DNA from: Coprinellus micaceus
Taxonomy: Eukaryota; Basidiomycota; Agaricomycetes; Agaricales; Psathyrellaceae
DNA: 64,000 nt
Direction of reading: 5' to 3'
NCBI GenBank assembly: GCA_951394405.1
Contig: OX596338.1
Location: forward strand, 1-64,000
Shown here: positions 1 to 58,484 of the stretch, piece after piece
Numbering within the stretch: position 1 is the stretch's first letter
Layout of the letters: each line of letters starts with the position of its first letter
The notes under the pieces: generated by a model
Databases searched by the model: none
What the model was told of the DNA's origin: nothing
Seen by the model: only the letters and a program-made list of their open reading frames with translations
Made by a program: the position numbers and the translations under genes

Positions 1-153
1 AACCCTAACCCTAACCCTAACCCTAACCCTAACCCTAACCCTAACCCTAACCCTAACCCTAACCCTAACCCTAACCCTAACCCTAACCCTAACCCTAACC
101 CTAACCCTAACCCTAACCCTAACCCTAACCCTAACCCTAACCCTAACCCTAAC
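1..153. repeat. Telomere, (CCCTAA)n tract
   Basis: About 25.5 perfect copies of the hexamer run from the first base, C-rich strand on top, as expected at a left chromosome end of TTAGGG type. There are no degenerate units, and the tract stops abruptly at base 153. This repeat is shared by most filamentous fungi and animals, so it does not identify the species. Confidence 0.99.
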
Positions 154-790
154 ATGCTATATATACTACTATCTAACCTTAAACTCGTTCTTACATCCAT
201 TTCCACCCATATCATTGCAAATTCACCCTCCGTTACCCTCTATACACTCTCCCATCCTTTCCACACCCCCCATCACCATCATCCCTTCACTCATATACAC
301 CCCCCTCTCTCCCAACACCCTCCCCACAAACACAAATCACAATATAAACCATCTCCACTATACCCCCACAACCTTCCATTCCCGCAACACATACATTCAA
401 CATCATATCATATACAACAACCTTCACTCCAATACATATGCATACCCTCTACCCATATACACCTCAAAAACACCTTCACAACAAACACACATCCCATACG
501 CCTTCACCGTAACAAAACGCAACATCCATCCAATACCTTTACACTCTGTTACCGTTACGGGTTCTATGCATAACATACATCCCACCCACCTTGCCCACAT
601 CACATTCACATTCATTTATCCCTTACCATCTCAATCCCGGCTTCACATCAATGCAATTCACCTTCTACTGGATGTACGGGTTACTCATGCTGGTTATACT
701 TGTAGTTACTGTATATTCCATGTCTCCCACCATAACTCGATGACGCCTCACCCGTTTTGTACGCGCAAGTACCCGTTGAGTCCGCGTTGC
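154..790. other. G-depleted subtelomeric strip next to the telomere
   Basis: The top strand is almost free of G: I count 8 G in the 360 bases 181-540, and none in 241-360. The content is C, A and T with short CCCAT/ACCCT-like words. Long open frames here (154-573, 215-814) follow from the composition and read as His/Pro/Thr/Ser-rich low complexity, so I do not call them genes. The bias fades by about 650-720. Confidence 0.8.
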
Positions 791-3230
791 TCACAGCTAC
801 ACGACGGTACCTAACACGCGTTGTTTGGAGCTCTGTATGGTGTACAACAGAGTCTCACCCCTTTGCAGCAGAGATATCACTACAACTCAATGGGAAATGC
901 GACGGGTAACTCGCGCAATGATTCATCGTAACCGCGTCGTTCATAGCTGCACATCGATACCTCATACGCTCAAATCGGCGTCGCCGTTGTTGCACAGTGC
1001 TCTTTCGCATGCTGCCTATGTAGTATTCCCCGGGACGGCAAGTAACTCGGCGGCGACTTCTCCGTTCAGCCCGCAACGGTGCGCGTTCAACAGCTGCCGT
1101 TCACAGCTCCACGGCGATACTACTCGCCACCCGAGCGGACGCTTCCTCGGCTCCCAGGAGTCCCTCGCACAGCATCGGAAAACCACCGAAACTTGCGTGC
1201 GGGGCGGCTCACTGAACCGAATAATACCGAACTGGGCTCGTTCGGGAGCGGTGAACGAGCGCTACAACATGGTATACCTCCGCCGGCACAGTACACCCTC
1301 CCTCGCACGCTACAGTACTTCGCATACCCGAAAATCCCCGTTTTTCACGAAACTTCACGTAGAGCATCCACGACACCACCGAGCGTTGCGTGTTAGTACT
1401 CGTTAGTGAGCTGGCAACAACGGTTACCCGTGGATACCGTACACGTGTCACCAACTGCCACCGAGGACACACTGTCGTGCGTCGGACAGGTGTTACTCCG
1501 TGAGAGAGATTGCACTGCATAGCAACGACGAGCGCGCCGAATGTCCTGCAAAGGGGTTCGTTCGAAGCGCGTTTTTTGTACCTATTTATCGATGCATTGA
1601 CCGCCTTTCAAAACGCCCTAGTTCACGCACTGTAGCCAATCGCGTACTTCCTGGGTAGTTGCGACGAAATCTGCCCTGCAGCGCCCGCCGCTCGGCCGAT
1701 TCTCGTGGTTGAGTATTCGTTGGATAGCCGGCGGTGACGTGTACGTGTAGGTACCACCCACGCGTCATATAGTGCCGCCGATAGTCCTCTGCGGTCCATC
1801 ACGTATCTGTCAAGCCATGGTAACCACCGGCACTGACCTAGAGTGTCACCGAGTCGCCCGATTGAGACCGGCAGGGGCTCGTTCGGAAGCTGCCGTTTAT
1901 GGCTACACGTCGATACCACGTGCCAGGCATTTAGCGCCGGCGATGTGATGCAACGCTCGATCGCACGGTGATCCACTGCGACAGGTATAGCATAACAGGG
2001 AGTTCACCGACTTGCGTGTAGAAATACGCGTTCGGTAGCCCTCGTTAATAGCTACCAGGTGGTACCACACACATGGTATTCGGCGCCGTGGGTGACTCAC
2101 AGTTGCGATTCGCACGTGCATTTCTATATAGTCCTGTATGCTGAGGCAACGAAATATTTATGGGCAAACGAATATGAGACTCCTCGCCATGAATGAATAT
2201 GCGTTCGAAAGCTATGATATGTAGCTACCCGACGAGCTCGCACACACGCAAATCGGCTCTGTAGTCGATGCAGAGTGGTCTTGTACATCCTACCACCTGC
2301 ATACTCAACATGTTATGACCGCCAAGTACCATCATAACATGTTTCCACTCCAAGTAACTTGCTTGGATGGTACAAGAGGTGTGTCAAGAGGTTCCTCACA
2401 ACCTGTCATTGTAGTGCAGTACTGCATTACACTGTATACCATTGACACACACACATGTAATAATTCAACGGTTATGCTGTATGTCATACGCAGGGGCTCG
2501 TTTGGAAGCTGCGAGTAATAGCTACAAGATGATATAGAATACGTGCCGGTAAGCGTCAGGAAACCGAGATAAAATGACTTCGCAATGTCAAACGGTAGCT
2601 TAAGTCGTTAAAACTGGCGTTGCACATCCTAGAGTCGGCCGAAAAGGTCGCAGCGCCCGTCGTTCGAAAGCCCTCAACAGTAGCTGCGTGGCGGTACCAC
2701 ACACAGAGCGATGCACCTCTTCGATGCTATGCTGTAGAGCCTCGCATCCTGGATACTTCAAACGGGCGTAGTGCACCGACGATCGCACCGAACAGCGTTC
2801 GCAAGAATGCGTTCGAAAGCCGGCGTCGTTAGCTACACGGCGATACCACATGCGAGATGGTACGCGCCGCCAGTTGGCTGCAACGCTGGATCGCATAGTT
2901 TTCCACTGCAGAAAGCGTAGCATACTAACGAGGTGGCCGATACTTACGCGGAGGTATTCGTTGTGTAGCTCTGAGTGACAGCTACCCGGCCGTACCACAC
3001 ACATGGTATTCGACGGGATGGGAGACGCGCAGTTGAGCTTCGCACATCATTTCCAATACATTACTGTCTGTTGGAACAATAAAATATTCGTAGTGCAGGA
3101 ACGAAGAGACCTTTCGTCCCGCGTACATGTACGTTCGAAAGCTGTGGTCGGTGGCTACCCGACAATTCCCTACATGTAGAAATCGGTCAACTCGTCGATG
3201 CACAGTGAGAGTTCAAATGCATTCAAAACC
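790..3230. repeat. Diverged ~150-160 bp satellite (family A), first block
   Basis: A module with core GCTAC, about seven bases, then TACCAC, usually preceded by CGTTCGNAAGC, recurs at roughly 808, 958, 1118, 1275, 1435, 1579, 1752, 1914, 2063, 2236, 2533, 2695, 2844, 2993 and 3165. Spacing is about 144-173 bp, with one double step. Copies are diverged. From 2063 on, the spacing series 173, 297, 162, 149, 149 is repeated in the second block (5.7-6.7 kb), so modules are organised in a higher-order unit. No convincing gene is present. Confidence 0.75.
2306..2344. repeat. 39-bp subtelomeric palindrome, copy 1
   Basis: Arms CAACATGTTATGA and its near complement, with 13 bases between. The arms are almost perfectly symmetric. 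It lies in the family A block between modules. Confidence 0.85.
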
Positions 3231-3264
3231 TGTTATGAACACTCACTGGACTCATAACATGTTG
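3226..3264. repeat. 39-bp subtelomeric palindrome, copy 2
   Basis: Left arm AAACCTGTTATGA, 13-base centre, right arm TCATAACATGTTG. It sits at the boundary between the family A block and the 153-bp array. Confidence 0.85.
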
Positions 3265-3294
3265 ACCGATTCTTGTACCTGCCATTAAGATAGA

Positions 3295-5560
3295 TAGAGG
3301 TACACCAGATAGAGTGTCAAGGGCACCCTTTCTGTTGTAACTATGCAAGGACATCGTCGATTCCCACGCATGCGGGCTCGTCAGAGAGACGTCGTCGAGG
3401 CGCACCTTCTGACGTGCTTCACCGCATGGCAATCGGCGGTGTACTCGCAGAGTTACACTGGATAGACTGCCTCAGACACTCTTCCTGGTATATCTCTGCG
3501 AGGACATCGTCGATGCACCTGCGTGTGGGCTCGTCGGAATCGCATCGTCGATGCTCGCTCTCTGGCGCACTTCACCGCATGTCAATCGGTTCAGTACTCG
3601 CAGAGTTAGACCAGACAGACTGCCTCAGGCACTGTTTCTTGTATATCTCTGCAAGGACATCGTCGATACTCTTGCATGCAGGCTCGTCAGGATGGCGTCG
3701 TTGATGCGCTCTCCCTGGCGCAGCTGACGGCGTGTCAATCGACGGTGTGCTCGCAGAGTTGCACCAGATAGACTACCTCAGGTACTCTTTCTGGTATAGC
3801 TCTGCAAGGACATCGTCGATGTGCTCGCATGCGGGCTCGTCAGAACGACGCCGGTGGTGCGGTCTCTCTGACGTGCTTTACCGCATGTCAATCGGCGATG
3901 TGCTCGCAGAGTTACACCACATAGAGTGCCTCAGGCACCCTTTCTGCTGTAGCCCTGCAAGGACATCGTCGATGCACATGTGTGTGGGCTCGTCAGAGAG
4001 ACGTCGTAGATGCGCTCTCTCTAACGCACTTCACGGCGTGTCAATCGACTGGGTACTCGCAGACTTACAACTGCAGAGGTGTCTGAGGCATACCTTTTGC
4101 TGTAATTCTGCGAGAACATCGCCGATGCACCTGCATATGGGCTCTTCAGGACGGCGTCGTCGATGCGCTCTCCCTGGCGCAGCTCGCGGCGTGTCAATCG
4201 GTGGTTTGCGCACAGAGTTACAGCTGCTCGGATGCCTGAGACACCCTTCCAGCTGTATCTCAGTGAGTACTTCGTCGATGCACCTGCATGTGGGCTCGTC
4301 TGAATCGCATCGTCGATGCTCGCTCTCTGACGCCCTTCGCGGCATGTCAATCGGTGGAGTACTTGCAGAGCTACACCAGATAGACTGCCTCAGGCACTCT
4401 TTCTGGTGTAGCTCGGCGAGGACATCATCGATCTGCTCGCATGCGGGCTCGTCAGAGAGACGTCGTCGATACGCACTTCCTGACGGGCTTCACCGGCTGT
4501 CAATCGGTGGTGTACTCGCAGAGTTATACCAGATAGACTGCCTCAGGCACCCTTTCTAGCATACCTCTGCAAGGACATCGTCAATGTACCTGTGTCTGGG
4601 CTCGTCAGGACGGCGCCATCGATGCGCTCTCTCCGACGCACTTCACGGCGTGTCAATCGACGGGGTACTCGCAGACTTACAACTGCAGAGGTGTCTGAGG
4701 CACACCTTTGGCTGTAATTCTACGAGAACACCGCCAATGCACCTGCATGTGGGCTTGTCAGGACAGCGTCGTCGGTGCGCTCTCTCTGACGCAGCTCTCC
4801 GCATGTCAATCGGCGGTGCGCTCACAGAGTTATGGCTGCAGGGGTGCCTCAGACACCATTTCTAGCATAGCTCTGTGAGGACATCGCCGATGCTCTCGCA
4901 TGCGGGCTCGTTAGGAAGGCGTCGTCGATGCGCCCTCTCTGACGTGCTTCACCGTGTGTCAATCGGGGGTGTACTCGCAGAATTACACTAGATAGATTGT
5001 CTTAGGCACCCTTTCTGGTATAGCTCTGCGAGGACATCGTCGATTCTCTCGCATGTGGGCTCGTCAGACGGGCGTCGTCGATGCGCGCTTTCTGATGTAC
5101 GTCTCCGCATGGCAATCGATGGAGTACTCGCACAGTTACAGCTGGTAGAGTGGCTCGGACACCCTTTCTGCTGTAACTCTGCGAGGAAATCGTCGATGCT
5201 CTCGCAGGCGGGCTCGTCAGAGAGGCGTTGTCGATACGCCCTTTCCGACGCAGCTCTCCGCATGTCAATTGGTCGGGTACTCGCGCAGCTACACCTCGCA
5301 CAGTGCACCAGGTAGTGTGCGAGGTCTAACTGTGTGAGAACACCATCGATTTGCTTGTGGGAGGGTGGGTCAGACAGGCGTTCTCGACGCGCTCCCTCCG
5401 ACGCAGGTCTCCGCATGTCAATCGGTGGAGTCCTCGCATAGTTACAGCTGTAACTCTGCAGGAACATCGCCGATTAGCTCGCATGCGGGCTCGTTGGAAA
5501 CATGTCGTTGAGTACCTGCGCTGGGTGCAAGTCACCGCATGTCAATCCGACGAGTACCCG
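3295..5560. repeat. 153-bp tandem satellite (family B), ~15 units
   Basis: The anchor CAATCG (or near variant) falls at 3430, 3583, 3736, 3889, 4042, 4195, 4348, 4501, 4654, 4807, 4960, 5113, 5266 and 5419. That is thirteen successive intervals of exactly 153 bases despite clear base divergence between units. The last unit (anchor 5543) is shortened by 29 bases. Because 153 is 51 codons, open frames run across units on both strands, for example plus-strand segments at 3414-3704, 3732-4559, 4584-4865 and 5055-5315, all in one frame, interrupted by single stops. I treat the array as a satellite, not a gene. Confidence 0.9.
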
Positions 5561-5700
5561 CTGCAGAATGCCAGAGTGCCTGACCACCAACCATCCAGAC
5601 ACCCAAAACACCCAAAACCCCAGAACCCTTGGCCAAAAAACCCTCAAACCCCTGGAACAAAATGGATCAAACCCTGGACCCTGGACACTCTCTCAATAAC
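5561..5700. other. A/C-rich junction with telomere-like words
   Basis: After the truncated last 153-bp unit, the top strand is dominated by CCAAAACC, ACCCAAAA and AACCC-type words and is nearly G-free to about 5690. It resembles degenerate telomere sequence but contains no true CCCTAA run. It separates the 153-bp array from the second copy of the family A block. Confidence 0.5.
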
Positions 5701-5727
5701 CGTCCCATTTCCGTGCGTAAATATTCG

Positions 5728-6780
5728 TCTTGCAGCCCTGGTTAACAGCTACCTGTAAATACCAGATACATGGTGTTCGGCTAAGTGGGTGACTTGAAAT
5801 TGCGATTCGCACGCCCATTTATATATAGTTCTGTAGGCTGAGACAACGAAATATTTATGGCGAAGCGAATATTGAGCCTCTCGTCACGCGTAAATATGCG
5901 TTGGAAAGCTATGATACGAGGCTACAGGACGAGCCCACACACATGCAAATCGGTTGAGTAGTCGATGCAGATTGGTCTTGTACATCCTAGCACATAGTTA
6001 CTCAACCTGTTATGACTGCCGAGTACCATCATAACAAGTTTCCACTTGAAGTAACCTGCTTGACTGGTGGATGGTACCTGAGGTCTGTCAAGAGGCTCCT
6101 CACAACTTGTCATGGTAGTGTAGTACTGCATCACTATATACCATTGACACACATGTAATAATTCAACAGCTAGGCTGCCTTTCACCTTCAGGGGCTCGTT
6201 TGGAAGCTGCGATTAATGGCTACAAGATGATATAAAATACGGGCCTGTACGCGTCGGGTAAGCGGGATAAAATAACTTCGGAATGTCAAATGTCATGTGA
6301 AGTCGTTAAAACTGGCGTTGCACGTCATAGAGTTGGCCGAAAAGCACGCTGCACATATTGTTGAAAAGCCCTCAGCAATACCTGCGTAGCGGTACCGCAC
6401 ACAGAGCAATAAACCTCTTCGATGGTGTGCTGTGTAGCCTCGCATCCTGGATACATCGAATGGACGTAGTGCACTGACGATAGCACCGAACGGCGTTCGC
6501 AAGGATGCGTTCGAGAGCTGCCGTTAACCGCTACACGACGATACCACATGCGACATGGTACGCGCCGCCAGTGTTCCGCAACGCTGGATCGCATATTTCC
6601 CCACTGTAACAAGGCTTGCATGCTGACGAGGGGACCAATTCATACGCGCAGGTACTCGTTATGTAGCCCTGATCCATGGCTACGCGGACGTACCACGCAC
6701 ATTGCATTTGATGGAATGGGAGGCTCAGAGTTGAGCTTCGCACATGGTGTGGTATGTATTGGTACTAGCTGGAACTGTTA
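5728..6780. repeat. Second copy of the ~1 kb subtelomeric block
   Basis: This stretch aligns by eye, module by module, with 2031-3010. Shared words include GACAACGAAATATTTATGG-type sequence, GTCGATGCAGA, CTTGTACATCCTA, TACTGCAT and ACACACATGTAATAATTCAAC. Family A cores sit at 5760, 5933, 6231, 6393, 6542 and 6691, giving the same spacing series (173, 298, 162, 149, 149) as the first block. The two copies flank the 153-bp array in direct orientation. Confidence 0.8.
6003..6041. repeat. 39-bp subtelomeric palindrome, copy 3
   Basis: Left arm CAACCTGTTATGA, 13-base centre, right arm TCATAACAAGTTT. It is the positional counterpart of copy 1 in the duplicated block, and part of the 13-base centre is shared with copy 1, as expected for copies duplicated together. 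Confidence 0.85.
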
Positions 6781-7630
6781 AATGTGTGTAGGGAAGCGCC
6801 GGCATTGACCCAGTGCACCACCGAGTTGGCCGATTGACTCCAGCAGGGGGTCGTTAGGAAGCCTTCGTTAAACGCTGCACGGTGATACCACATACATTGT
6901 GTTCGGTGCGGCCGATCGATCGCAGTACTGCTTCGCACTGTGGAGCTTCGGCATGCATGTTACGCGCCACCAACCACACCGCATAACACGCGCAAGGGTT
7001 CGTTCGCAAACTGCCGCTCATAGCTACAAGTAGACATAGCACAGGTACCTGTCCACGACCACGGCGCGCTTTGAAACGACTTCGCAGAGTCACACAGTGT
7101 GTTAGCTCATTAAAAACATCGTTGTACATCGCAGCGGACGCCGTACAACTTGCGGCAGGTATCGTTCGAAAGCCCTGGAGCGTAGGTACACAGTGGTACC
7201 ACAGATAATCCGGTGCGAACGTTCGATGCCATCCTGCGCAGCCTCGCATCCTGGATATGTGGGACGTGCATAGAGCGCCGACGTTAGCGCCGACCGTCTG
7301 TCATCAGCATGCGTTCGAAAGCCCTGACGCGTGGCTACACGGCGGGACTACATGCGAGACGGTACGCTCCGCCGTTGCTTTGAACGGCTGGATCGCACAT
7401 TTTACTACTGCAACAAGTATAGGATGCCGACAAAGTGGCCGATTCATACGCAAAAGTACTCGTTATGTAGCCCTGGTTCATGGCTACGCGGGCGTACCAC
7501 ACACTTGGTATTCGATGGGATGGGAGGCACATAGGTGACCACCGCACATGGTATGCAATATAGTACCACACAACACATGCAATGGTTTGTTCGCAAGCTA
7601 CGACTCATAGCTACAGGTAGATATTGACCA
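6781..7630. repeat. Diverged family A satellite, third stretch
   Basis: Further family A modules have cores near 6886, 7035, 7197, 7346, 7495 and 7622, spaced 149, 162, 149, 149 and 127. The last module ends just before the stop codon of the helicase gene at 7640, so the gene's 3' end abuts satellite DNA. No separate gene is seen. Confidence 0.7.
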
Positions 7631-7639
7631 CTCTATCTA

Positions 7640-10600
7640 TTACAATGCGGTTTCTAACTCTCCTATCCATGCCATGATTGCCATGGACCCGGTATGATGT
7701 TCAGGGTGTGGAGTTGACAACCACTTTACGAATTCCTCTACCGATGTCCAGCTGACTCTAAGATGCTTCATCATCTTCTGCCTCTTGTTCGTGTCCACCC
7801 ATAACACGGTCAGCATGGGCAGAACTACATCACGCCGCTCACAGCTTTCCGTCTCCACTTCCATTGGCTGATGCATCAAGTCACCACCTCCTGACCAGAT
7901 GTGACACTTGTAGCAAGGACCTGACCATCCGGACGGGTATTGAATGTTGCGCCGGATGTGCTTGAATGTGTCGATATGCCCTTTGAGGTAAGGACATTGG
8001 AACGGAGCGTGATTCTTGCTCCACCCATTTGTAAAGCATGCCCCACAGCTCTGTTCGCCCGTACAGTTGATGACACCGAAATACTTTGAAAGAGCTTGTA
8101 GCTCAACATTGCGTGCTTCACCTGCGAGGGTCCGTGCCTTGTCACTTGCTACGTCAAAGCCTTGCTCCACTTTCTCCCGGAATGCAGTGGGTGAGGCCAC
8201 AGCCATGTAGTAGACATCCTCGAGTTCATTGAACCAAAGATTATCACTCATGTCATCTGTCATTTCTGTTGAGTCTTGACATGCATCTGTTATGAAGTCA
8301 GTGCGTCTTCATAACAAGTTTGGGTTAATCTACTCACTCCCAGTGCAAGCACTGCACCTAATGAAGTGACTTGGCATCTCCACACAGGTCTTTCCCTCAC
8401 CATCCATGACTCTGCCTGAGCTGTAACGGAAGCACGACTTGGGCCACACCGTATTCCAGTTCGTTATTTCGCTCATTGCTTCTGCTCCAACAAATTTCCC
8501 AGTTACTTCGCAGCTGCCACCACAGGCCTTCCCGCTGGGGATGATGGCGCACCATGCTTCTTGTCCATCTCTTCCCGCCCTGCCAGACTGTTGATTGAAG
8601 ACAACCATATCTGGTGGTGTCCCAATATGGATGGTGAGACGCACATTCGCGTAGTCGTTTCCAGCTCCCAATGCACTTGTGCATATCAAACCTTCCTTCT
8701 CTCCAGCCAACCATTGGTCCATTCTTTCTTGGCGTGCAGAGTCATTGAGTGGATGCTTGCTACTTGACGCATGGTAGAAGTCAAGATTGAGGATGTCGGC
8801 CACCTCTTTGCCCTTGTCGAAGTACGTTGCAAAAATCATGTAGCGGTCCTTACTTCCCCAAGGTATGCTTGCTTTGCAGTCATGAATGACTTTCCGAACC
8901 TCTTCTGCCACCGCCTGCCCTGTTGAGAAACCACGCCGAAGAATGTAGCGTAATTCAGGTCTCGCACTGGGAGCCGTTAGAGTAAGGGTGTTTGTTAAGG
9001 CCATTTGTTCGGCAAGCCAGACGCGAGAAGCTGGAGGGAGAGTGGCGGACAGCAGAACCAGTTGAAAGGGAATTGCCATGCGTAACTTGTATGGTTTCTG
9101 CATTGCCTCCTTGCGGAAGTTATAGTCCGTGAAGTAGTAGTGAGCTTCGTCGATAACAACTCGGGCTACGGTGCGTTTTGCACTGAGATCTGCAAATGCC
9201 TTGCGCCAGTGAATGTTGCGGGCCACATCAGAAGACACAAGGACAATGTTGGCATCACCCTCCAGAGTTGGATTTTTGGCCCCTTCGAAATGTTCCCAAT
9301 GGACGTTGAGTGCTGTCAGCCTTCGTTTCCAGTCTTGCATTAGCGCCGTCAGTGGGATGATTATAACTGTTACTGCGTTTTCCACTTGGCTGGGTAGTAC
9401 TGCAATGACGGATTTGCCAATGCCAGTAGGCAAGGCCACGATGACATCTTGCTCAAGTTTGAGAAGTGCATCCACAGCAGATCTCTGTTGGAGTGACCGC
9501 CACTTTGCGTCTGGCTGTCCAAGCAAGTCTCTGAGATGCTTGAGCATGCTGGTGCCTGTATGATGACGATCTAAGAAGTCGACTTGGCTGCTCGACGCCA
9601 ACCTGTTATGAGTGCCTGGCGTCACCATAACAAGTTTGTTGCCTTGGTTTGCTTCAGGTTCGGCTGAGTCGTCTGCAACATACATGTCGTTGTCAGAATC
9701 AACATGGTCCTGTGTAAAGGGAAGGCCAGTGTTATTGTCGTCTGAGTTGTCGTGGACAGATTGCATGTCGTAGTCACCGCTTGGGTAGACTTCACCCAAA
9801 GTGCGTTGCTCTACGTGGTGTGATGTTAGCACAATGGCATACCAGATCTATGCATGACTGACCCTTTAGGTGTGAGATTTCATGTTCAAGAGTAGTGATC
9901 TTGTCAAGAAGGGTCTTGTGACCGTTGTCAATTGACTCCTGCATTTTGGCAAGCATGGAAAGCACCGGTGAGAGGTCAGTCCCTTGACTAGCTGTTGGAT
10001 TGGGGTCTGTGACGCTGTCATCTGGCACAAAGTCGGACATCTTGACCTGGTCGTATGGTAGGCATTCTCCTGCGGGCGGAATTTGAAAGGCCTTTTGAAA
10101 GTCGCGGCTCGTGTCCAGGTATAGAGTAATCATGTTCTCCGATACCCCTGCAAGATTGTCCTTATCCAGCCCATACACTCTTCGTTCCGTTGCGACTGAA
10201 TGTCCACTCTGGAGTGCATGGATGCTGCTCGTAATCTCCTTTTCCAATTCATTGTCGATTAGTCCCTTGCATTTGTGGCCAGTGAATGCGATATGAATGT
10301 GGCGGTGGGGACGGACAGTCATAGACCAGCCAGTGACGGCGGATGAATGCTTGCCCATTAACTTGCTGACCATATCTGGATCAAACTCCTTCTTGAAACC
10401 CATGAACAGCATCTCTCCGTAGTTCATCGATATTTCTGGCTGTTCAGGCCAAAGCAACTTTGCCAACACCTGAAACCTGTTATGAGTTCCAAGTGCGTTC
10501 ATAACAAGTTTGGGGCCTACCATTGCGAAGGGTCGTGCAATCGCATGGACCTGAATGATCATATCTTGTTCGAACCCACTGAATGCACGTGGAATCATCT

Positions 10601-13095
10601 TGTCCATCTGCTCGTTGTTTGTGTTTTTGCTATACTGACCGATCAGTGCAAGATACCGCCCAACACCCATGACATTGCGCATGCGGGTGTTTCGGTTGCG
10701 CACAAGACTGCACGTCAACTCGCTCATCCGTCCTGGTGCGCCACTCTTCATCTCTGTACCCAACAACAAGTGCATCTCCAATTCGTCCAGCTTCTGGATC
10801 CACTTGACTGCCCTATGTGGATTGAGAATCCATTCACCAGTGGGACTCTTCATCATGAATTCCTTGAAAAGTGCGGGTTGGTCCATAATGGCATTGAACA
10901 GAGCGTTCGTATACTTCTTGAATGGGTTATTAGGATTGTCCAAGAAGCAATGGCCAGGTTCGTCAGAAGAAAGATTGTCGTGGATCATATCGTAGACCAC
11001 CCGCAGTTTGAGGCCCATGAGAACGTCTTCTTCCCACAACTTGATTGCATTGTCCTGCACCCGCGTGTAGATCTCCTGAAGGTTTTGTATGGAGATTGGT
11101 TGTCCATCATAAAGCATTTGGTCGTAATCGCGCCGGTGTCGGTTTGGAAAGATAACCTTTGGAAAACCCAGTGTTGAGAGGGCAATTCTCGTGGCGTACT
11201 TTTGAAGTGACACGAGGTCAGAGAATGTTGTCATCTCATGGCTCTTGATCCATACTTGAAGCTTCATCATCTCCCTCATCTCGTGTAGGTGTGGATTCTC
11301 GTCCTTCCTCAGGTGCAGCTCTTTGAGAATTGTTAACTGTATGGCTCTGGTCAACTTGGCAATGGTTCCAGTGACTTCCTTGGGGTGTGCGAATAGGCCA
11401 GTTGATTTGAGGGTGAAAAGCCCAAGAAAGCAAATCGTAGGATCGGGGAATGATGCAGCCACACCAGATGGCCATTCGTGAACCCACAGCTCCTTGAACA
11501 CCTTGTGGAGGGCCATTGCTGACCTCTCATTGCGGAGGGTTTTCACCGCAGTATCAAGGGAGGGGGTGGATGCAAATTGAAAGCCATCTGGGATCTTTCG
11601 GAGGAGGGCGCAAACGAGGTGTATGAGAGGCAGCGCATATTTTGCGATTGTTTCCTTGTGCTGGTGGTGAAGGTGAAATGGCGTGTGGTTGAGTCTGCGG
11701 AATGGTCAGTTAAATAGAATAACTATTGTATAGTCTTTACGTACTCATGGTCAGGATCAGCACTGTTTAATCGCTGTAGTGTCTGAATACTTGTGCTTGG
11801 AATGAGATTGGAGACATCTTCCATATACACGCGCACCAGGGCTGCTACCCAGTATAGCGGATCATTCTTCTTGGGCATAGACACCAATTCCACCAAGGGT
11901 GCCGGATCCCGATTGTCGGTCAATGTGTGCCAGCCAGTACGCATCAGCCATGGACTAATGTACCTTGAGTTGGGCACTGCTCTGGTTGCATCCATCACAT
12001 TTTTGTAAAAGGAAGTGTACTTCGCCTTCCATGCTACCACTGGACTGTCTTCATCTTCTTCTTCGTCCTGGTCGATAGGTGTGACCCTCAGCTTTGTTTT
12101 GGCTCTCCCTTTGTTTAGCACCTGGGTAAAGACATTATCCTGAGGTTTCAACGCTTGACGAGGATGTTTTGCCCGGATGTGCTGTTGAATGGTGGCCTTG
12201 TTGCCAGCTTGTGGACAGGCGGGACAGCCAAATTCCTTGACCATGTCCAATCCACCAAGCTGAGCCAAGACCGTAGCAGGCGAAAGGCTGGGATAATCAC
12301 TGTGTATGTCTTGAACTGAAATGACTTCAGCAAGCTTGACCTTGAACACTTTATTGGTACTGCGCTTGTGCGAGGCAAGGTGTGTGGCGATGTTCGTAGC
12401 GGTATACATTTGGCGACATTCAATACAGTTGAACAGCCGGAGGTGGGAGTTGATCACAAGGCCCTGCGTGTCAAGCCAAGGCGAGGTGACGATAAAGTTG
12501 CCACACTGCGTGTATTCCTAAATGTACTATATGAGTTAGGACCAACATTATATTTCTGGACGACTCACCCCACACTCAGGCGGTGAGGGCACACGCACAA
12601 ACGAGGGACTTGGGCTCGCATCAACGTCAAACTTGTTGTGAAGGTCAGCGGCAGTCATAACAGGTTTGGTGTGTGAACTTACCACTTCCTTCATAGTGAC
12701 GCTCTTGGGTGAGACCTGTCGCGACCAAGACCCAAAACTTGTTATGAAGCCGCCTTGACCTGATAACACGTTTGGATCTTACCTGTCTAAGACGTTGAGT
12801 GGAGGGACCTTCCTCTTCATCTGGATTCTCCTGAAAAATATGAGGTTGAGACACACGCATGTTCCTAAGGGAAACTCACCCTCAAACGCTTCAGGGAAGT
12901 CTTGGGTGCAGGTGATTCAGGCTCCGACTCCATCTTGTTATGAGGTTGAGTTGGACTCATAACAGATTAGTTGGTACAGCATACCTCTTCATCAGAGCTC
13001 CCACCCAAGAAAGCAACATGATTGCCCTTCGCATGGTTGGAAACATCCACGGCAGAGGTAAGGCTGATGTTGCACTGATTGCAGGAGAAAGACAT
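7640..13095 (-). CDS. Telomere-linked helicase: C2H2 fingers + tyrosine-recombinase-like domain + RecQ-like SF2 helicase
   Basis: Nine exons by splice consensus: 13095-12985, 12933-12880, 12830-12783, 12715-12683, 12631-12569, 12517-11745, 11694-9863, 9810-8338, 8265-7640. Every junction keeps frame, giving 1671 codons with the TAA. The ATG at 13095 opens directly into a CxxC...H...H finger (exon 1). Two more C2H2 fingers lie near residues 134-153 and 201-221. Residues ~620-870 look like a tyrosine recombinase: GRMSEL (R683), Lys717, RHIHI (R825/H826), then GHS (H859) and Tyr868 nine residues later. An acidic linker leads to the helicase: PTGIGKS near 1099-1105, DEAH 1192-1195, SAT 1226-1228, QQSGRAGRDG near 1378-1387. 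The C-terminus is Cys-rich. The intron at 9811-9862 has a perfect TGCTAAC. A 51-base in-frame segment around 10473 may be another intron. Family knowledge: such genes sit at fungal chromosome ends (tlh type). Substrate and role are unknown. No stop or frameshift is seen, so it may be active. Confidence 0.85.
8283..8321. repeat. 39-bp subtelomeric palindrome, copy 4 (in helicase intron 8)
   Basis: Arms GCATCTGTTATGA and TCATAACAAGTTT, 13-base centre. It lies wholly inside the 72-bp intron 8266-8337 of the helicase gene. Confidence 0.85.
9599..9637. repeat. 39-bp subtelomeric palindrome, copy 5 (in helicase exon 8)
   Basis: Arms CAACCTGTTATGA and CCATAACAAGTTT, 13-base centre. No flanking donor is evident, so it appears to be coding. 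In the sense frame it reads as a 13-residue KLVM...THNRL insert in the linker before the helicase domain. Confidence 0.8.
10473..10511. repeat. 39-bp subtelomeric palindrome, copy 6 (in helicase exon 7)
   Basis: Perfect arms AAACCTGTTATGA and TCATAACAAGTTT, 13-base centre. The frame is open across it. A GTAGGC donor and TTTCAG acceptor would define a 51-base in-frame intron containing it, so it may be intronic. Confidence 0.85.
12629..12667. repeat. 39-bp subtelomeric palindrome, copy 7 (in helicase intron 4)
   Basis: Arms AAACTTGTTGTGA and TCATAACAGGTTT, 13-base centre. It fills the 3' part of the 51-bp intron 12632-12682; the acceptor AAG is formed by the palindrome's own arm. Confidence 0.85.
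12735..12773. repeat. 39-bp subtelomeric palindrome, copy 8 (in helicase intron 3)
   Basis: Arms AAACTTGTTATGA and TGATAACACGTTT, 13-base centre. It is entirely within the 67-bp intron 12716-12782. Confidence 0.85.
12931..12969. repeat. 39-bp subtelomeric palindrome, copy 9 (in helicase intron 1)
   Basis: Arms CATCTTGTTATGA and TCATAACAGATTA, 13-base centre. It occupies the 3' part of the 51-bp intron 12934-12984; again the AACAAG acceptor is the end of the palindrome. Confidence 0.85.
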
Positions 13096-13140
13096 GGTGG
13101 TGGTTCAGGTTCAAGAGGTGGATCGATGGGATCATTCAGC

Positions 13141-13163
13141 TGGATATATATGTATATATATTT
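13141..13163 (-). promoter_or_regulatory. TATA-rich element upstream of the helicase gene
   Basis: A run of alternating TATATA lies about 48-67 bases upstream of the ATG at 13095 on the minus strand, a plausible position for a core promoter. No other promoter element is recognised. Confidence 0.4.
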
Positions 13164-13281
13164 GTCCCAATATGGCAAGACAGCACCAAACAAAGTCACA
13201 TGGCTGGTGGCTGACAGCCAGCTCACAACGTCACACATGCTCTCTCCTCCCTTGTAACCTGTGTTACCATAACTGGGCCTG

Positions 13282-13320
13282 AAATTTGTTACCAGGCCAA
13301 TGTGCGCTCATAACAAGTTT
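13282..13320. repeat. 39-bp subtelomeric palindrome, copy 10
   Basis: Left arm AAATTTGTTACCA (diverged), 13-base centre, right arm TCATAACAAGTTT. It lies about 190 bp upstream of the helicase start codon. Confidence 0.7.
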
Positions 13321-13362
13321 GCGAACAGATGTTGTGACAATACATCCACCAGACTTCCATGG

Positions 13363-13800
13363 CGTATTCAGGTGCCATCTCAGGTCGACCGCATACCCAA
13401 CATTGAGTGTATTTAGCTTTTGCAAGGGTGTAGTCAGCTTCTATGCTGTGTATTCAGGTCCTGTTAGAGTGTATTCAGATCCAGAAACAGCGTATCCAGG
13501 TGCTGGTAGAGTGTATTGATGTTGAGGAGTGTATTGATGTCGAGAAGGAGTGTATTCAGGGTCTCACAAGATGTGCCAACCCAAGTCGTTATGACGCCAC
13601 AATACCCTCATAACAAGTTTGAATGTCGGCCAACGAATGTTGTTCACAGCCAAAGTGCCATGTATTCAGGTCCAAGAGGGGGTGTATTCAGGTCCACCTG
13701 GGGTGTATTCAGGTTCAGGTGAGGTGTATTCAGCCACACGACCACCCCCGACGGGGCGTATTCAGGTCCCACCACCCGGAGCGTATTCACCGAGTGAATA
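13363..13800. repeat. Minisatellite with GTGTATTCAGGTCC-like unit
   Basis: The word GTATTCAGG or close variants recurs about thirteen times in two clusters (about 13363-13565 and 13662-13800), with a spacing of roughly 20 bases in the denser parts. Open frames across it read as repeating VYSGP/VFRS peptides that follow from the repeat. It lies upstream of the helicase promoter. Confidence 0.7.
13582..13620. repeat. 39-bp subtelomeric palindrome, copy 11
   Basis: Left arm CAAGTCGTTATGA, 13-base centre, right arm TCATAACAAGTTT. It lies inside the GTATTCAGG minisatellite upstream of the helicase gene. Confidence 0.8.
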
Positions 13801-14129
13801 CTCGGGTAAGATATATAGGTCTGGCCTACCTGATAGCAGGTAGACTTGGGTTGTGTACCAGTCACACTTGATATTGAGTCAGTCTGACTGTATATTGGAC
13901 TTCCCATAACTAGTGAGGGCTTCACTGACTTTGGGTTGAGTCTTTATATAAGGTTGGGCCAAATTAATATAAGGTGGACTGGGAATAGTGGGAACTGGGG
14001 GTGTGGGTTGGATACTGGGATTCATTTCCAAGTCAACCTGCACCCACAGCAGGGTTATACCTGGGTATACCCATGTGTAACCTGCTGTGGATGCTGGTTG
14101 ACCTGGTAGTGGTCCTGGATAATTCCCAG

Positions 14130-14290
14130 TTTAGGGTGGGTCTACTGTACTTGGCCCAGGACTGGGTCTGTACCTGGCTTTTGGCCCACTGTACTTGGCC
14201 TTGCTGTACTTGGCCCCCGTGGGAACGGGGACTTAGTGCATTTCCATTATTTTGGCAGGGGGGAATCTGTACTTGGCAGCCAAGTACACC
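14130..14290. repeat. Short minisatellite with TGTACTTGGCCC unit
   Basis: Four to five imperfect copies of CTGTACTTGGCCC are seen between about 14140 and 14285. Just beyond, 14490-14570 has a GGCGTCTATCTAA repeat in G-rich sequence. No gene is recognised. Confidence 0.55.
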
Positions 14291-15360
14291 AATGAGATAG
14301 TAAGGTGTAGTGGCGGTGACGCGTTGATGACGGGTGTGTTGGCGGTGAACGATGAGTGGAGGGCGGAAGGCGGGTGACGATGACGACGACGAGCAAGGGC
14401 GGTGACGATGAGCAAAGGCGGGAGAGACGACGAGCACGACCCATTAGGGGTGGTTAGGCCTTTGGGCAATGCCCGCCGACAACCTCCGGACCCGCCGGAC
14501 GCCTGGCGTCTGTCTATAGGGGGGGGTGGCGTCTATCTAAGGGGGGATGGCGTCTATCTAAAGGGAGAGCCCCTCCGACAGGGTCCGGCCGGTCGCCGTT
14601 TGGGTGACAGACAGAGTCCGTATATGGATGGAATAAGGTAAGGTACTAATATCTTGCGGAAACATTATTCCGACGCGGTCGCAGGGGGCATCGCTCGTTG
14701 AACGCGTACAAAACGCCCAGTGTCTTGCCGTAGTCCTATACTCGGGTTTCTGTCAGGCCTCACCAAGTCCGACGCAGGATAGATCTGGATTATCAGAAGA
14801 TGTACGGTTTAGGACTCACCACTGGATTCAGAGGAAAAGGACTTTCTACACCCTAAGTGACAAGTGAACCGAACAACGTCGATTTGAACTTGTATTGTAG
14901 ACAGAACTCACATGGTGAATACGCATATGGTCGTTGTAGTCCACAAGGGGTCCATGACCGATAGCCGCAGATTCCCCCCACTGAGAGTCGTCCTGTGATA
15001 GCAGACAATACACGGTACCGATGACATCCTGTCCCTATCCCACCGTGCGTGTTTAGAATCCACGACAGCTGCCACTGTGACACATCCTTTGAGAAATACC
15101 ACAATTTTTGCTCATGGTTCCGAAATCATACAGTGGGGAGGGTGGAGTCAACTTCAATGAGAAGTTCGTTTCGAGGGCTCAAGTAAATCGACAGATGCAG
15201 GGAATGAGAGTCGGATCGCAATCGGGAGCTTGGAACGACTCACAGAGGTTGTCTAAAGATTCTCATCCGACTACTTTGAATTGAGGACGGGAGATTTGAA
15301 AAGGGCGGGCGCCTCTAATCGCCGGTGCCGGGGCGTTGGACAAACACCTCCCGTTCATAG
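14291..15360. other. Subtelomere-core transition, no gene recognised
   Basis: Mixed sequence with a GACGATGACGACGACGAG-like stretch near 14380, G-rich repeats to 14600, then ordinary composition. The open frames (14033-14469, 14853-15104) are short and look like no known protein. Confidence 0.4.
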
Positions 15361-16052
15361 CTACCATCTACTCGGCATCGGTGAAAGACCAAGATGAGAG
15401 GGGGCGGCGATTTGGGGTAGCGACGTCCATACGCACGGGCCAGGCGTCAAGAGTGTTGCAATTCCCGCCTCAGGGATACGACACGAGGAGTTATGAGCAT
15501 GCAGGAAGCGAAGCAATCCCATAACACGTTTAGAATCCGGCTCTAAGGACAACAGATCCAGCGATACCCACGTTTACGGAGAGGTGTCCAAGGAAATTAG
15601 ATGGCAGAGCTGATCTAGAAGGCTGACCGACCAGTCTACGGTGTGTGTAACAAAGTGTAACCGACGAAGAGGTAGGTGCTCGAGCAAGGTGACACGAATG
15701 TCTAGAGCCGGAGAGGAGGATATATCGTGCAGAAAGACCTCGCTGTCCAACTGGAAATCTAACCCCATCTTCCAGCTACCTGAATACGCGCCTCCTTGTT
15801 CGTCCTCCCACTCTGCGTGCGGTGCATTCCGTCTCGAGCGCCATACTCTCATCGCCGGGGTTATGTGATTCCAAGGTGAGGGTAACGCTCGCGTAGTCCA
15901 CCCGTTCGAGATATCAGATCAGAATACAGGTGGGTAGAGCACGAGCAACGAGATCGAGCCAGTTCGTCGAGGTGGAGGTCATGGTGAAGAATTAAGATTC
16001 GATGATCGATGGACGATTCCGTGCGTAGCGGCGAGTCGGCGATCGCCGACAC
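15361..16052 (-). pseudogene. Possible decayed LRR/F-box-type gene
   Basis: The minus-strand frame 15574-15852 reads LDIRVTLLEHLPLRRLHF followed by a LLDQLCHLISLD segment, the leucine spacing of basidiomycete F-box/LRR proteins. An upstream ATG near 15980 gives a short frame that ends at a stop, and the frame 15361-15552 continues after an interruption and contains palindrome copy 12. I could not build an intact model, so this may be a relic or a gene with unseen introns. Confidence 0.3.
15484..15531. repeat. Subtelomeric palindrome, copy 12 (long centre)
   Basis: Arms CGAGGAGTTATGA and CCATAACACGTTT, but with a 22-base centre instead of 13. It is the innermost copy; no further copy was seen to base 64000. 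Confidence 0.65.
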
Positions 16053-17000
16053 CCCTTGGTACTCCGCAGGAGGTCCGTGCGGGGTCTTTACTCCTTGTTC
16101 TTGACCAACACCACCGCATCTACGCCGATTTCATCTGCAGTTCACGATCGCCGATTCTCGTACCTTCCCTCAGATAATGACAGCCTCACTCGGAACTTCG
16201 GGGTTGGATGAGCGGAATATAATACCGCCATTATTCGACGTTGAGAACTCCATCGAGCTTGGAGTCTGAAACTTACCGGAAACCGCCAGCGAAGACATCT
16301 AAGTAGGAATGGAATCATTCTTTGGTATCTGACTGCGTGACCTTCGACTCCAGATCTATTCTTCGAAAGGTCTTGGGCGCTGCAGGTTGATGGAGCATGC
16401 GGGAACTGTGGTTCGGGGTATCTACTGTGAAAGGGTAAGCACAAGTCTCTCCTGAGGCTGCATGATTGAATCACCATTCGCTCGACTATCCAACGCGAGG
16501 GTGTGGTGCAAGAAACTATTTCGCGCTCGACGGTCTTCATCGAGTCGAGATTTCTCTTTTAAAGTAATCGCCAGCCTACCCCACCGTCATCCTGATCGTG
16601 CCCAACCTGTATTCCAGTCCTCCCACCCGCTCTAAGCCGTCTTGAATCCCGCCGTGACCCAGATTCGCAGAGGCGGGCGCAGAGACAGGGGCTATCAGCT
16701 CGTGGGAGTCGCCAACGGCGCTGGCATCAAGCGCCGACGACACTCGTTCTTGATTACCATGACCTTCTCATACCTTCGATGGTCCCACCGTCCAAACTCC
16801 TCCCTCTCGGGTCTCTGCTATCGAACCGGGCCTATGGTTTGAATATCTTTGACTTTGGCCATAGGACCGTTGAGAACTGGAGATTCGGTTTGCGGTGATC
16901 GAAGTGAGTCTTTCGACCTTGGCGTTTTGTTGATCTATGTGACTAATCCTTCAGTTCTCCCAGTAGCCATCGTCGATCGTACCATAGCTCCTCTAGCGCG
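16053..17000. other. No gene recognised
   Basis: The only long frame (16142-16540, minus, 132 aa) is basic, lacks recognisable motifs and has no supported splice partners. Nothing else stands out. Confidence 0.4.
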
Positions 17001-18670
17001 CCGGATGGCGATTACGGAGCCCCTTTGACACGCGTGGGTCGGAACGATTGGAGAAGAGGTTGGGCGCTTAGTGAAGGAGCAGAAGTGGGATCAGTCTTGT
17101 CATGGTACGTCGTCGCGTTCTCCTTATTTCTAGATCATCCATCCATTTCGACGTCTTCATCCCCTTCTCCCGAGCTCTTCGCCTTCATCCCCTGTCGCTC
17201 GACCATGTTGTCACGTACTGATGATAGTGTTCTCAGTATCCTCAACGACCTCAACGTTTCAATGTCTTCCCATTTCCCTTCACTTCCCAATGTCATCGCC
17301 TCGACATCGCAATCGACTCCCCGTTCGGCACTCCCTCTATGACGACGACCCGTATCCTCCAGGGTGCGTCAAACTGCGCCTCGGGGCGGTCTGCTCGTTA
17401 GGGCCGATTACGATTCCCCTACGACGACCCTCCCTGCTGGATCCTATGGAGACAACGGCCTTGAAGGACCCTTTCAACTCCCTCCCCGACCCCACACTCA
17501 TCGTCGGCGTACGCGTGGATCCCTCCCAACTGCGAAGCCAACGATGCGTACCGTTCCACGCGGACTATATCGACTCGACCGGCGGCCGTTTCCGACCTAC
17601 AACCCCTTGAACGGCTCCCCTACTCCCGTTTCTGCTTCGCTCCATCGCCCGCTATCACCTCGGTCCTTCCATACCACCCACGCCGCCCACATCCGATCTG
17701 GGTGTTCTCATCGACACGGCCCTTCCACCTCGCTCGCGAGATCTTGGATCTCGGTTCTCGCTTGAACGTCGACGCCTCGGGTGGATCCCGCCCTTGGCGG
17801 ACGATCGCGTACTTGGGAGACGGAAGCGCCGTACACCCTGGAGGGCTGAACACGGACTCGAATCTCGCGCGCATTCGCTCCGCCCTCGAACCACGCCGAC
17901 GTTCAGAATTTCTACGTGCTCCGCTTCGCCGCCGCTAACCCGTTCATATGTATTTGAACCCGATCTGCGGACGGCCGTACGTCTGTCCTACGCGGGACAG
18001 ACGTCGCCTTCTTGGACGCTCTCAGGGGAACGTCACGACGGGGGAAAGAACGCCATAGCCACGACGTTAAGCCTGACCAGTGCTGGTCTACGGACATTCA
18101 ACATGCCGCCTCGGGCAGATTTGGGTACGTCAGCTTCTCCGTTCGTTTCGATCTGTACGGCGCATCGCCGTTTCCTTTACCGTATCCTCCTGTTCGCCAG
18201 GGTCTTACTGGCTTGTTTTCATCCCCGGGACCTTCCTTCCTTTCACTTTGCCTGCTCCCGCCCACTTACGTTCGGTCGCGACCCCTTCCCCCATTTCGCC
18301 TTGGTTTCACTTCAAGTTTCTATTCTCTCTCACCTCAGTGTTCTTGACTTCGAGCTCGCCGCTCGAGTCCTTGTCATCTCCATTTGTCGCCCTTCTCGTC
18401 CTCACTCAAATCAATCGCTACTGTACGTGTTCGTCTCCCAGACCGTTTCTCACCCCTCTGCGTTTGCATTGGACCCCTCTTTTGTTTGAAAGTTACAGTC
18501 ATTACCTGTATCGTAACTTCCTCCGGATGTTCGTTGTGTTCGATTCTGTCGCATTTTCGAATGCACGTCCCTGCGGTTACCCCTCCCGCGAACGCGTTCG
18601 TAATCCAAGGATTTCGTTGAATCGGTCGGGCCTTTCCTCGATGCTTAACGTGAAGAGTTTTCGCTAGTTT
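17001..18670. other. Pyrimidine-rich stretch, possible decayed coding sequence
   Basis: The top strand is rich in C and T with few purine runs. Several overlapping plus-strand frames are open (for example 17702-17938, 17794-18489), but they are Arg/Ser/Pro-rich and switch frame without plausible splice sites. The segment around 17750-17900 (LDLGSRLNVDASGG) reads most like former protein. No family is recognised. Confidence 0.3.
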
Positions 18671-57911: not shown

Positions 57912-58484
57912 GATGGTGGGTGATGAAGAATGGGAGAGGATGAAATGATAGGTACGAAACGATAAGAGATAGGTGATAGGTAAAGTGCCCGTGATTTTGT
58001 AGGTAAAACGGACCAATACGTAGATATCCTAAAAAGGAGTTGAAGTTTTACACTAAGATCCGCAGAGGGAACCCCGCTGTCACTTTGAGTACCAGTTACT
58101 GAAAGCGTTTGGATGGAGGGAGCGCTACCGTTGCGTCGTTTCCCCAGTCCAACCGAATCAGGCCTCTCAAAGAAGGATCACTACTCTAATTCCGCAGACG
58201 GTAAGCGTCTGTGGACTTCCTGATAGCTTCTTTCCCGTAGTGGGAACGCTTGCCGCGGGGTAGAAGGTGGTAATGGAAGTTGATACGTACTCCTGAGTAT
58301 CAGGAGGGGTAGTGGAATGTAAGTAGCGAAACGTAAATAGCGAAAGTGAAGATAGTGAAAATGTGAAGAGAGATAGGCTTCAGGTGGAGATATCACACGA
58401 GAAGAGGCCGTAGGCTATGGGCGATCGAGGGGCAGTGGAGCGGTTACCGCGGTGTCTGATAACGGATGGCGTGATCAGAGGAGC

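Follow-up and report, generated by a model that had tools for sequence, protein, structure and literature searches.

Palindromic 39-bp sites with a constant 13-bp centre at chromosome ends of Coprinellus micaceus, in and around a telomere-linked helicase gene with recombinase-like motifs

Telomere-linked helicases have been described as tlh1 in fission yeast, TLH in Magnaporthe and UTASa in Ustilago. Here we analyse a family of 39-bp palindromes at the left end of contig OX596338.1 (C5) of Coprinellus micaceus, assembly GCA_951394405.1. The window, the stretch of 64,000 nucleotides analysed, begins with CCCTAA telomere repeats (1-153) and contains a predicted helicase gene of this kind, TLH-I. 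The locus resembles the described ones in that several RecQ-type helicase genes lie near telomeres, but TLH-I differs by a tyrosine-recombinase-like middle domain and by palindromic introns. A literature search at the level of titles and the first lines of abstracts, with most subscription papers and preprints outside it, returned no recombinase-helicase fusion and no palindromic introns in telomere-linked helicases.

The core sites of tyrosine recombinases have a spacer of 6-8 bp between inverted arms of about 11-13 bp, and the arms found here are of that size. With lox, FRT and dif the palindromes share inverted 13-bp arms (lox, P1 record), midpoints 21 bp apart when measured between the 8-bp cores, and a candidate cognate protein in the locus. 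They differ in having a centre of 13 rather than 8 bp and no recombination trace, and in lying, in several cases, within predicted introns. In Plasmodium var, the intron DNA of a chromosome-end gene family has been proposed as a binding site; the var introns and subtelomeric factor sites differ from the present ones in sequence, layout and organism, and would offer an analogy only.

Symmetric introns have also been described. The symmetric sister (stw)introns of the Hypoxylaceae, in the part of the published account drawn on here (PMC8469720), have inverted repeats of 45-55 nt and number scores of introns at novel gene positions. As in Coprinellus, these introns are mostly inverted repeat and occur in several copies, and that part of the account reports no flanking duplications. 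In Coprinellus, however, the arms are of 13 bp, the introns belong to one gene family at chromosome ends, and copies are found beyond introns. Introners, in the portion of PMC9860276 used here, likewise form families of similar introns, but we see no sign of exon insertion creating introns, and only one gene family is involved. Introns 7 and 9 of TLH-I, the two palindromic ones that were compared with paralogues, are not at new positions, and copies do not occur in many genes genome-wide.

Are the palindromes then DNA sites for a protein, RNA structures, or the remains of small mobile units? Our favoured answer, held at somewhat less than even confidence, is that they are two-fold symmetric DNA sites that would be bound by a dimer of the helicase with tyrosine-recombinase-like motifs, the protein encoded by the surrounding predicted gene. 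The initial annotation had listed twelve copies, eleven of them with exactly 13 central bases. A scan of the window for arm pairs, with up to 3 mismatches allowed per 13-bp arm, recovered these eleven between 2306 and 13620. With the core written as TGTTATGA-N13-TCATAACA and up to 3 mismatches, the window has 11 matches versus 0.20 expected, and none of 100 shuffled sequences reached 11. The twelfth copy, with its centre of 22 bp, fared differently. Its right arm (15519) passes and its left arm has 4 mismatches at gap 22; in an 88%-identical counterpart on C13 both arms diverge further. For these two reasons it is not counted as a member. The copies are listed below; P0130, a protein of Coprinellus micaceus, is the closest found to TLH-I (77% identical).

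2306..2344, no strand: 39-bp palindrome outside recognised genes, one of the 8 copies of set G1, which is spread over six ends
3226..3264, no strand: 39-bp palindrome outside recognised genes, 31 bp ahead of a 153-bp tandem array
6003..6041, no strand: 39-bp palindrome, also in set G1 and likewise outside recognised genes
8283..8321, no strand: 39-bp palindrome with 35 of its 39 bp in predicted intron 9, the right arm supplying the predicted 3' splice site AACAG
9599..9637, no strand: 39-bp palindrome in exon 9, in frame, encoding KLVMVTPGTHNRL where P0130 has ELVMGASGTHNRF
10473..10511, no strand: 39-bp palindrome entirely within predicted intron 7
12629..12667, no strand: 39-bp palindrome with 36 of its 39 bp in predicted intron 4
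12735..12773, no strand: 39-bp palindrome entirely within predicted intron 3
12931..12969, no strand: 39-bp palindrome with 36 of its 39 bp in predicted intron 1
13282..13320, no strand: 39-bp palindrome ahead of the predicted start codon, with CAG after it on the coding strand; possibly an intron of the 5' untranslated region
13582..13620, no strand: 39-bp palindrome lying upstream of the helicase gene, within 415 bp that match C9:31543-31957 exactly
15484..15531, no strand: doubtful twelfth copy, whose centre is 22 bp long and whose left arm has 4 mismatches; probably no member

The reported confinement to the 15.6 kb nearest the telomere stands: no arm pair is found past that point, and 16001-64000 holds no exact half-site. 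All 17 exact TGTTATGA half-sites in positions 1-16000 are paired at 13 bp, and 110 kb taken from 11 other stretches contain a single exact half-site. Arm position 5, proposed as a direction mark with T in one arm and C in the other, does not serve as one, as the plus strand reads C/T or T/C in only 6 of the 11 window copies; the remaining five read A/A, C/A, T/G, T/T and T/T.

The genome (50.3 Mb in 17 contigs, labelled here by C and a number) was searched with the same pattern, a test set beforehand. Exact TGTTATGA-N(3-33)-TCATAACA occurs at 24 places and the reversed control at none; the centre is 13 bp in all 24, though any length from 3 to 33 was allowed. Every one of these sites lies at one of six telomere-bearing contig ends (C4 right; C5, C7, C8, C9 and C11 left). 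Their distance from the contig end is 1.1-13.5 kb, or 30-31.5 kb on C9. By homology they amount to 9 independent sites: one set has 8 copies, two sets have 5 each, and 6 sites are single. When up to 3 mismatches were allowed there were 49 forward and 42 reverse matches, versus 4 and 3 in the control. Matches with up to 2 mismatches are all at the six ends bar one (C16:17646); of those with 3, some are at the six ends, three are of a sister type on C1, C3 and C6, and the rest are scattered. Exact half-sites on C4, C7, C8, C9 and C11 are paired at 13 bp in 42 of 62 cases. Eleven forward half-sites have a partner at 11 bp, and these come from a tandem array of TGTTATG...CATAACA pairs with 11-bp spacing that adjoins the 39-bp sites (C7:13000-13500, also on C8, C9, C11 and C4). 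General inverted-repeat scans were too noisy for use.

Such a distribution could in principle be that of a passive subtelomeric repeat, functionless sites being carried along on duplicated blocks, and 18 of the 24 exact sites do fall in the three duplicated-block sets. This is, however, very unlikely: nine independent exact sites have common arms and a common centre length, and the intronic arms agree between the C5 and C7 helicase genes even though the proteins are just 50-59% identical.

TLH-I has the features of a telomere-linked helicase. It encodes RecQ-like DEAD and Helicase_C domains, occupies 7.6-13.1 kb near the telomere repeats, and its relatives carry RecQ names.

7640..13095, minus strand: TLH-I telomere-linked helicase gene, predicted 10 exons and 1660 aa, open throughout in a hand-built gene model
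8564..9487, minus strand: DEAD and Helicase_C domains (Pfam)
12934..12984, minus strand: predicted intron 1, 51 nt, palindromic, phase 0
12716..12782, minus strand: predicted intron 3, 67 nt, palindromic, phase 0; the model has Q where P0130 has KSRN
12632..12682, minus strand: predicted intron 4, 51 nt, palindromic, phase 0
10470..10520, minus strand: predicted intron 7, 51 nt, palindromic
8287..8337, minus strand: predicted intron 9, 51 nt, palindromic
10143..10760, minus strand: recombinase-like signature region (SGAPxRxTEL, QYSK, xRHI, GHSxxTExRxY), identified at motif level only and containing intron 7

Six of the eleven window copies are held within this gene, five in predicted introns (1, 3, 4, 7 and 9) and one in frame in an exon. 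Thus 5 of the 6 palindrome centres within the modelled gene are intronic, with introns making up 8.7% of its length (binomial 2.7e-5). The residues of P0130 match the gene model over introns 1, 2 and 4-8, for example ARPFAM-VLAKLLWP at intron 7; P0130 disagrees with the model at intron 3 and stops before intron 9. Around the exonic copy at 9599, it retains at the protein level the arms LVM...GTHNR on either side of an altered centre.

Paralogues at other chromosome ends carry palindromes of the same layout. The predicted introns 2-5 of the C7 paralogue, four in succession, are each 48 nt long, in phase 0 and palindromic, and three of the exons that they separate are 75-nt repeats. C7 also has an exonic palindrome, in the same linker as the C5 exonic copy and at a different place. 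The C3 paralogue, with introns read by eye and without a full gene model, has four intron-like stretches with N13 palindromes whose arms differ, for example TTATATGA-N13-TGATATAA. Inner GGT/ACC symmetry leaves 7 bp in most C3-type sites, and these alone could, judged by their sequence, be compatible with the 6-8 bp spacer of a recombinase. The type of site follows the helicase paralogue, with the TGTTATGA type around C5 and C7 and the TATATGA type around C3, C1 and C6.

At four of the six site-bearing ends (C5 and C7; C9 and C4) the sites lie in or near a helicase gene. On C9, where it is whole, and on C4, where it is cut by the telomere, the gene belongs to a second helicase family, and the nearest matched N-terminal stretch is 2.7-4.8 kb from the sites. 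This second family (C9, C10, C1, C6) is single-exon and encodes 1000-1027 aa, five copies being 99-100% identical; it shows the same recombinase-like signature, LGHSSKMDAQHYGLD.

Could the palindromes be operators for a DNA-binding protein of the host, such as a factor for silencing or for marking ends, and occur in helicase genes merely through the position of these genes at chromosome ends? The exact copies on C4, C8, C9 and C11 are all outside recognised genes, and the binding protein may be encoded elsewhere. The DNA-level evidence presented here (half-site pairing, core invariance and the lack of a G-U excess, for which see below) would apply equally to such operators. A single host factor, however, does not predict that site type tracks the helicase paralogue, and we consider this explanation possible but rather unlikely.

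The intronic copies might also have arrived as a tiny mobile element or introner-like unit, a 39-bp hairpin with splice signals that spread through introns and flanks. The arms are near-identical across several introns, two exons and intergenic DNA, and the exonic copies of C5 and C7 occupy different places in the linker. A precedent is given by the symmetric proliferating introns known in the Hypoxylaceae, in the part of the account cited (PMC8469720). The paralogues tell against such a unit. At the position of intron 7 there are intron-like stretches without a palindrome in C3 (51 nt) and in C7 (50 nt), and at that of intron 9 there is one of 44 nt in C3; since these are of similar length, the palindrome has not simply been added or inserted. 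Furthermore, exact copies occur at six ends only, the exonic copy is common to P0130 at the protein level, and inspection of the flanks by eye, in this one genome, showed no target-site duplications such as a MITE would leave. We regard a mobile unit as unlikely.

A different possibility is that the palindromes act in RNA, as hairpins in the helicase pre-mRNA that control splicing, with a stem that exposes the branch site in the 13-nt loop and the 3' splice site in the right arm. That arm does supply the predicted 3' splice site, AACAG or AACAAG, in three introns. Of the window's five palindromic introns, four have better folds than shuffled sequences (z -2.3, -3.0, -4.3 and -2.7), and two of C7 also have negative values (z -1.6 and -4.0). 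Taken as sense RNA, however, intron 4 shows no such folding (z +1.75), and a palindromic intron of C3 barely does (z -0.8; an ordinary C3 intron has z 0.06). In 12 intron copies read on the sense strand there are 7 G-U mispairs versus 10 A-C mispairs, so that there is no G-U excess and a mispairing bias towards sense RNA is rejected. Of 25 copies, 19 have arm position 1 unpaired and 15 have arm position 5 unpaired, and exact sites lie kilobases away from any recognised gene. A search of positions 1-18000 of the window with Rfam gave no match at the gathering score.

The three duplicated-site sets outside recognised genes are instructive here. All 48 core columns (16 per set) are invariant, against 211/300, 260/300 and 130/300 flank columns, with the provisos that the third flank aligns poorly and that the P-values for this contrast assume an independence which the columns lack. 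With seven C3 copies added, pairing in the aligned cores rises to 94.0% of cells, a value that none of 500 shuffles matches, and covariation is 0.256 as opposed to at most 0.096 for slid structures. Pair counts omit the duplicates of C7:1250, C7:11265, C7:13151 and C7:13492 on other ends. The copies C8:2172, C8:2470 and C9:31094 were retained in alignment A1, and the doubtful 15484 and C3:9643, a near copy of C3:9767, were dropped; intergenic copies were oriented arbitrarily, and not alike in alignments A1 and A2. We read the covariation as that of a DNA site whose sequence altered symmetrically between gene lineages, an interpretation limited by the relatedness of the copies.

A dimer site at the level of DNA is thus indicated by the pairing of all window half-sites, by the invariance of the arm cores and by sense-RNA pairing not being favoured. 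The initial annotation had preferred such a site to an RNA hairpin, and the preference is supported by the mispairing and weakened by the folding of four of the five introns. Because five copies sit in predicted introns and four of these fold better than shuffles, we keep an RNA role in consideration, at a distinctly low probability.

The proposal that the helicase itself is the binding protein draws also on its middle domain. The four residues R194, K229, H346 and Y355, which we take to be the catalytic residues of a tyrosine recombinase, are invariant in an 11-sequence alignment that includes the second family and other fungal relatives; the ten further sequences are 17-21% identical to the first, bar one at 56%. 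In these 11 sequences the order of R, K, H/W and Y and the spacing between them are those of a recombinase. The distance from H to Y is 9 residues, like that in XerD and lambda Int, and box II reads RH in 9 and W.RQ in 2 of the 11. The middle stretch, 636 aa in TLH-I, belongs to no Pfam family.

Several results weigh against the favoured reading. As regards the protein, the 11 relatives were picked for spanning the region, and P0001-P0005, P0007 and P0137 end before the region does. In the predicted proteins P0134 and P0135 one residue of the set is missing (K and R, respectively), and the regular expression for the signature, written after the sequences had been viewed, matches 8 of 10. Pfam detects no recombinase in the middle domain, and hhalign gives a probability of 0.14% against XerD and 0.08% against a XerD/Cre/lambda-Int alignment. 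Foldseek gave nothing significant for two AlphaFold models, which are themselves weak (mean pLDDT 67.7 and 54.7); the sole recombinase-type entry is a DNA_BRE_C phage protein in the viral list, at rank 15 with E 2.5. VIA-align gives no recombinase among the matches listed (458 and 96 chains aligned), and comparison by sequence likewise failed to confirm the domain. As regards the sites, 4 of the 9 TLH-I introns are without a palindrome, and 20 of the 62 exact half-sites on C4, C7, C8, C9 and C11 are not paired at 13 bp. No exact site occurs at 6 of the 7 second-family loci. Conversely, the C8 and C11 ends have sites and no helicase in 20 kb of each, nor any in the second-family search. Finally, when C5/C7-type copies are aligned together with a single C3 copy, 84.6% pair, versus 84.7% in shuffles, and there is no covariation.

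The 13-bp centre and the lack of exchange also count against it. The initial annotation had compared the layout to a tyrosine recombinase core site, and that comparison fails on the centre, which at 13 bp in 24 of 24 exact sites lies outside the 6-8 bp of such spacers and is too long for a lox-type site. What survives of the dimer-bound layout is its two-fold symmetry, the fixed centre, the confinement to chromosome ends and the recombinase-like signature in the host gene; the lox-like core does not. Exchange or inversion of centres between sites, which had been suggested as a comparison, is likewise not seen, since the 18 copies in three sets have collinear flanks and their centres are conserved (11, 11 and 12 of 13 centre columns invariant in the sets of 8, 5 and 5). 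Active recombination of the lox type is therefore extremely unlikely, despite the 13-bp arms, the signature and one broken site (C7:2155-2200) whose left arm is joined to the 153-bp array. Recombination traces were also sought by eye in homology blocks of at least 80 bp shared between ends, and were rejected: the blocks mostly end away from palindromes, and of the eleven window copies only that at 3226 is at a block end.

Other features of the chromosome ends were noted. The tandem array of the window consists of thirteen 153-bp repeats (3296-5450), with one frame open for 284 aa over part of it. The 415-bp block at 13405-13819 that is identical to C9:31543-31957 is followed by 494 bp (13813-14305) that are 99.8% identical to C6:2196-2689, and from their sequence these blocks appear to be a recent mosaic exchange between chromosome ends. 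The palindrome block of C9 (at 29280) lies 30 kb inside, and the sequence outside it has inverted repeats in common with the end of C10, which suggests that a chromosome end was added outside it. Telomere repeats begin near truncated helicase genes at the C4 right end, where a second-family gene is cut, and at the C6 left end, where a first-family copy is cut, as if broken ends had been healed by telomere there. The predicted helicase P0135 (Coprinellus aureogranulatus), of the TLH-I family, has a hAT dimerisation domain inside it, probably a transposon insertion or a mis-annotation. A genome-wide search with Pfam Phage_integrase gave two distant matches (C5:2.64 Mb and C13:0.31 Mb) and none at the helicases; the former (C5:2638716-2638970) is a Phage_integrase-type gene with an open frame of 444 aa, away from the ends, and is possibly a Crypton-like element. 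The window also contains, on the minus strand at 53085-58028, retrotransposon frames of 625 and 1021 aa, judged by eye to be of Copia type.

If the palindromes are sites for a dimer of the helicase, one protein subunit would grip each half-site. The midpoints of the TGTTATGA cores are 21 bp apart, or two helical turns, the same as for lox arms (13 + 8), which would place both subunits on one face of the DNA. The gene would tolerate the copies inside it, since these either leave with the spliced introns or fall in a variable linker. The bound protein may mark, regulate or recombine its own chromosome end. A bolder version, which we hold to be improbable, is that of a eukaryotic cassette, a recombinase-RecQ fusion with its sites in phase-0 introns, in which N-terminal exons might be swapped, duplicated or lost in frame through site-specific recombination. 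The exchangeable exons would be zinc-finger modules in C3 and the 75-nt repeats in C7, and the arrangement may be likened to a bacterial integron or shufflon.

If the middle domain is a recombinase and the palindromes are its sites, the role of telomere-linked helicases would become directly testable, with the protein, its 39-bp target and the set of chromosome ends all defined. It would also mean that sites for protein binding or recombination are held inside spliceosomal introns, and that their arms have diverged symmetrically between gene lineages.

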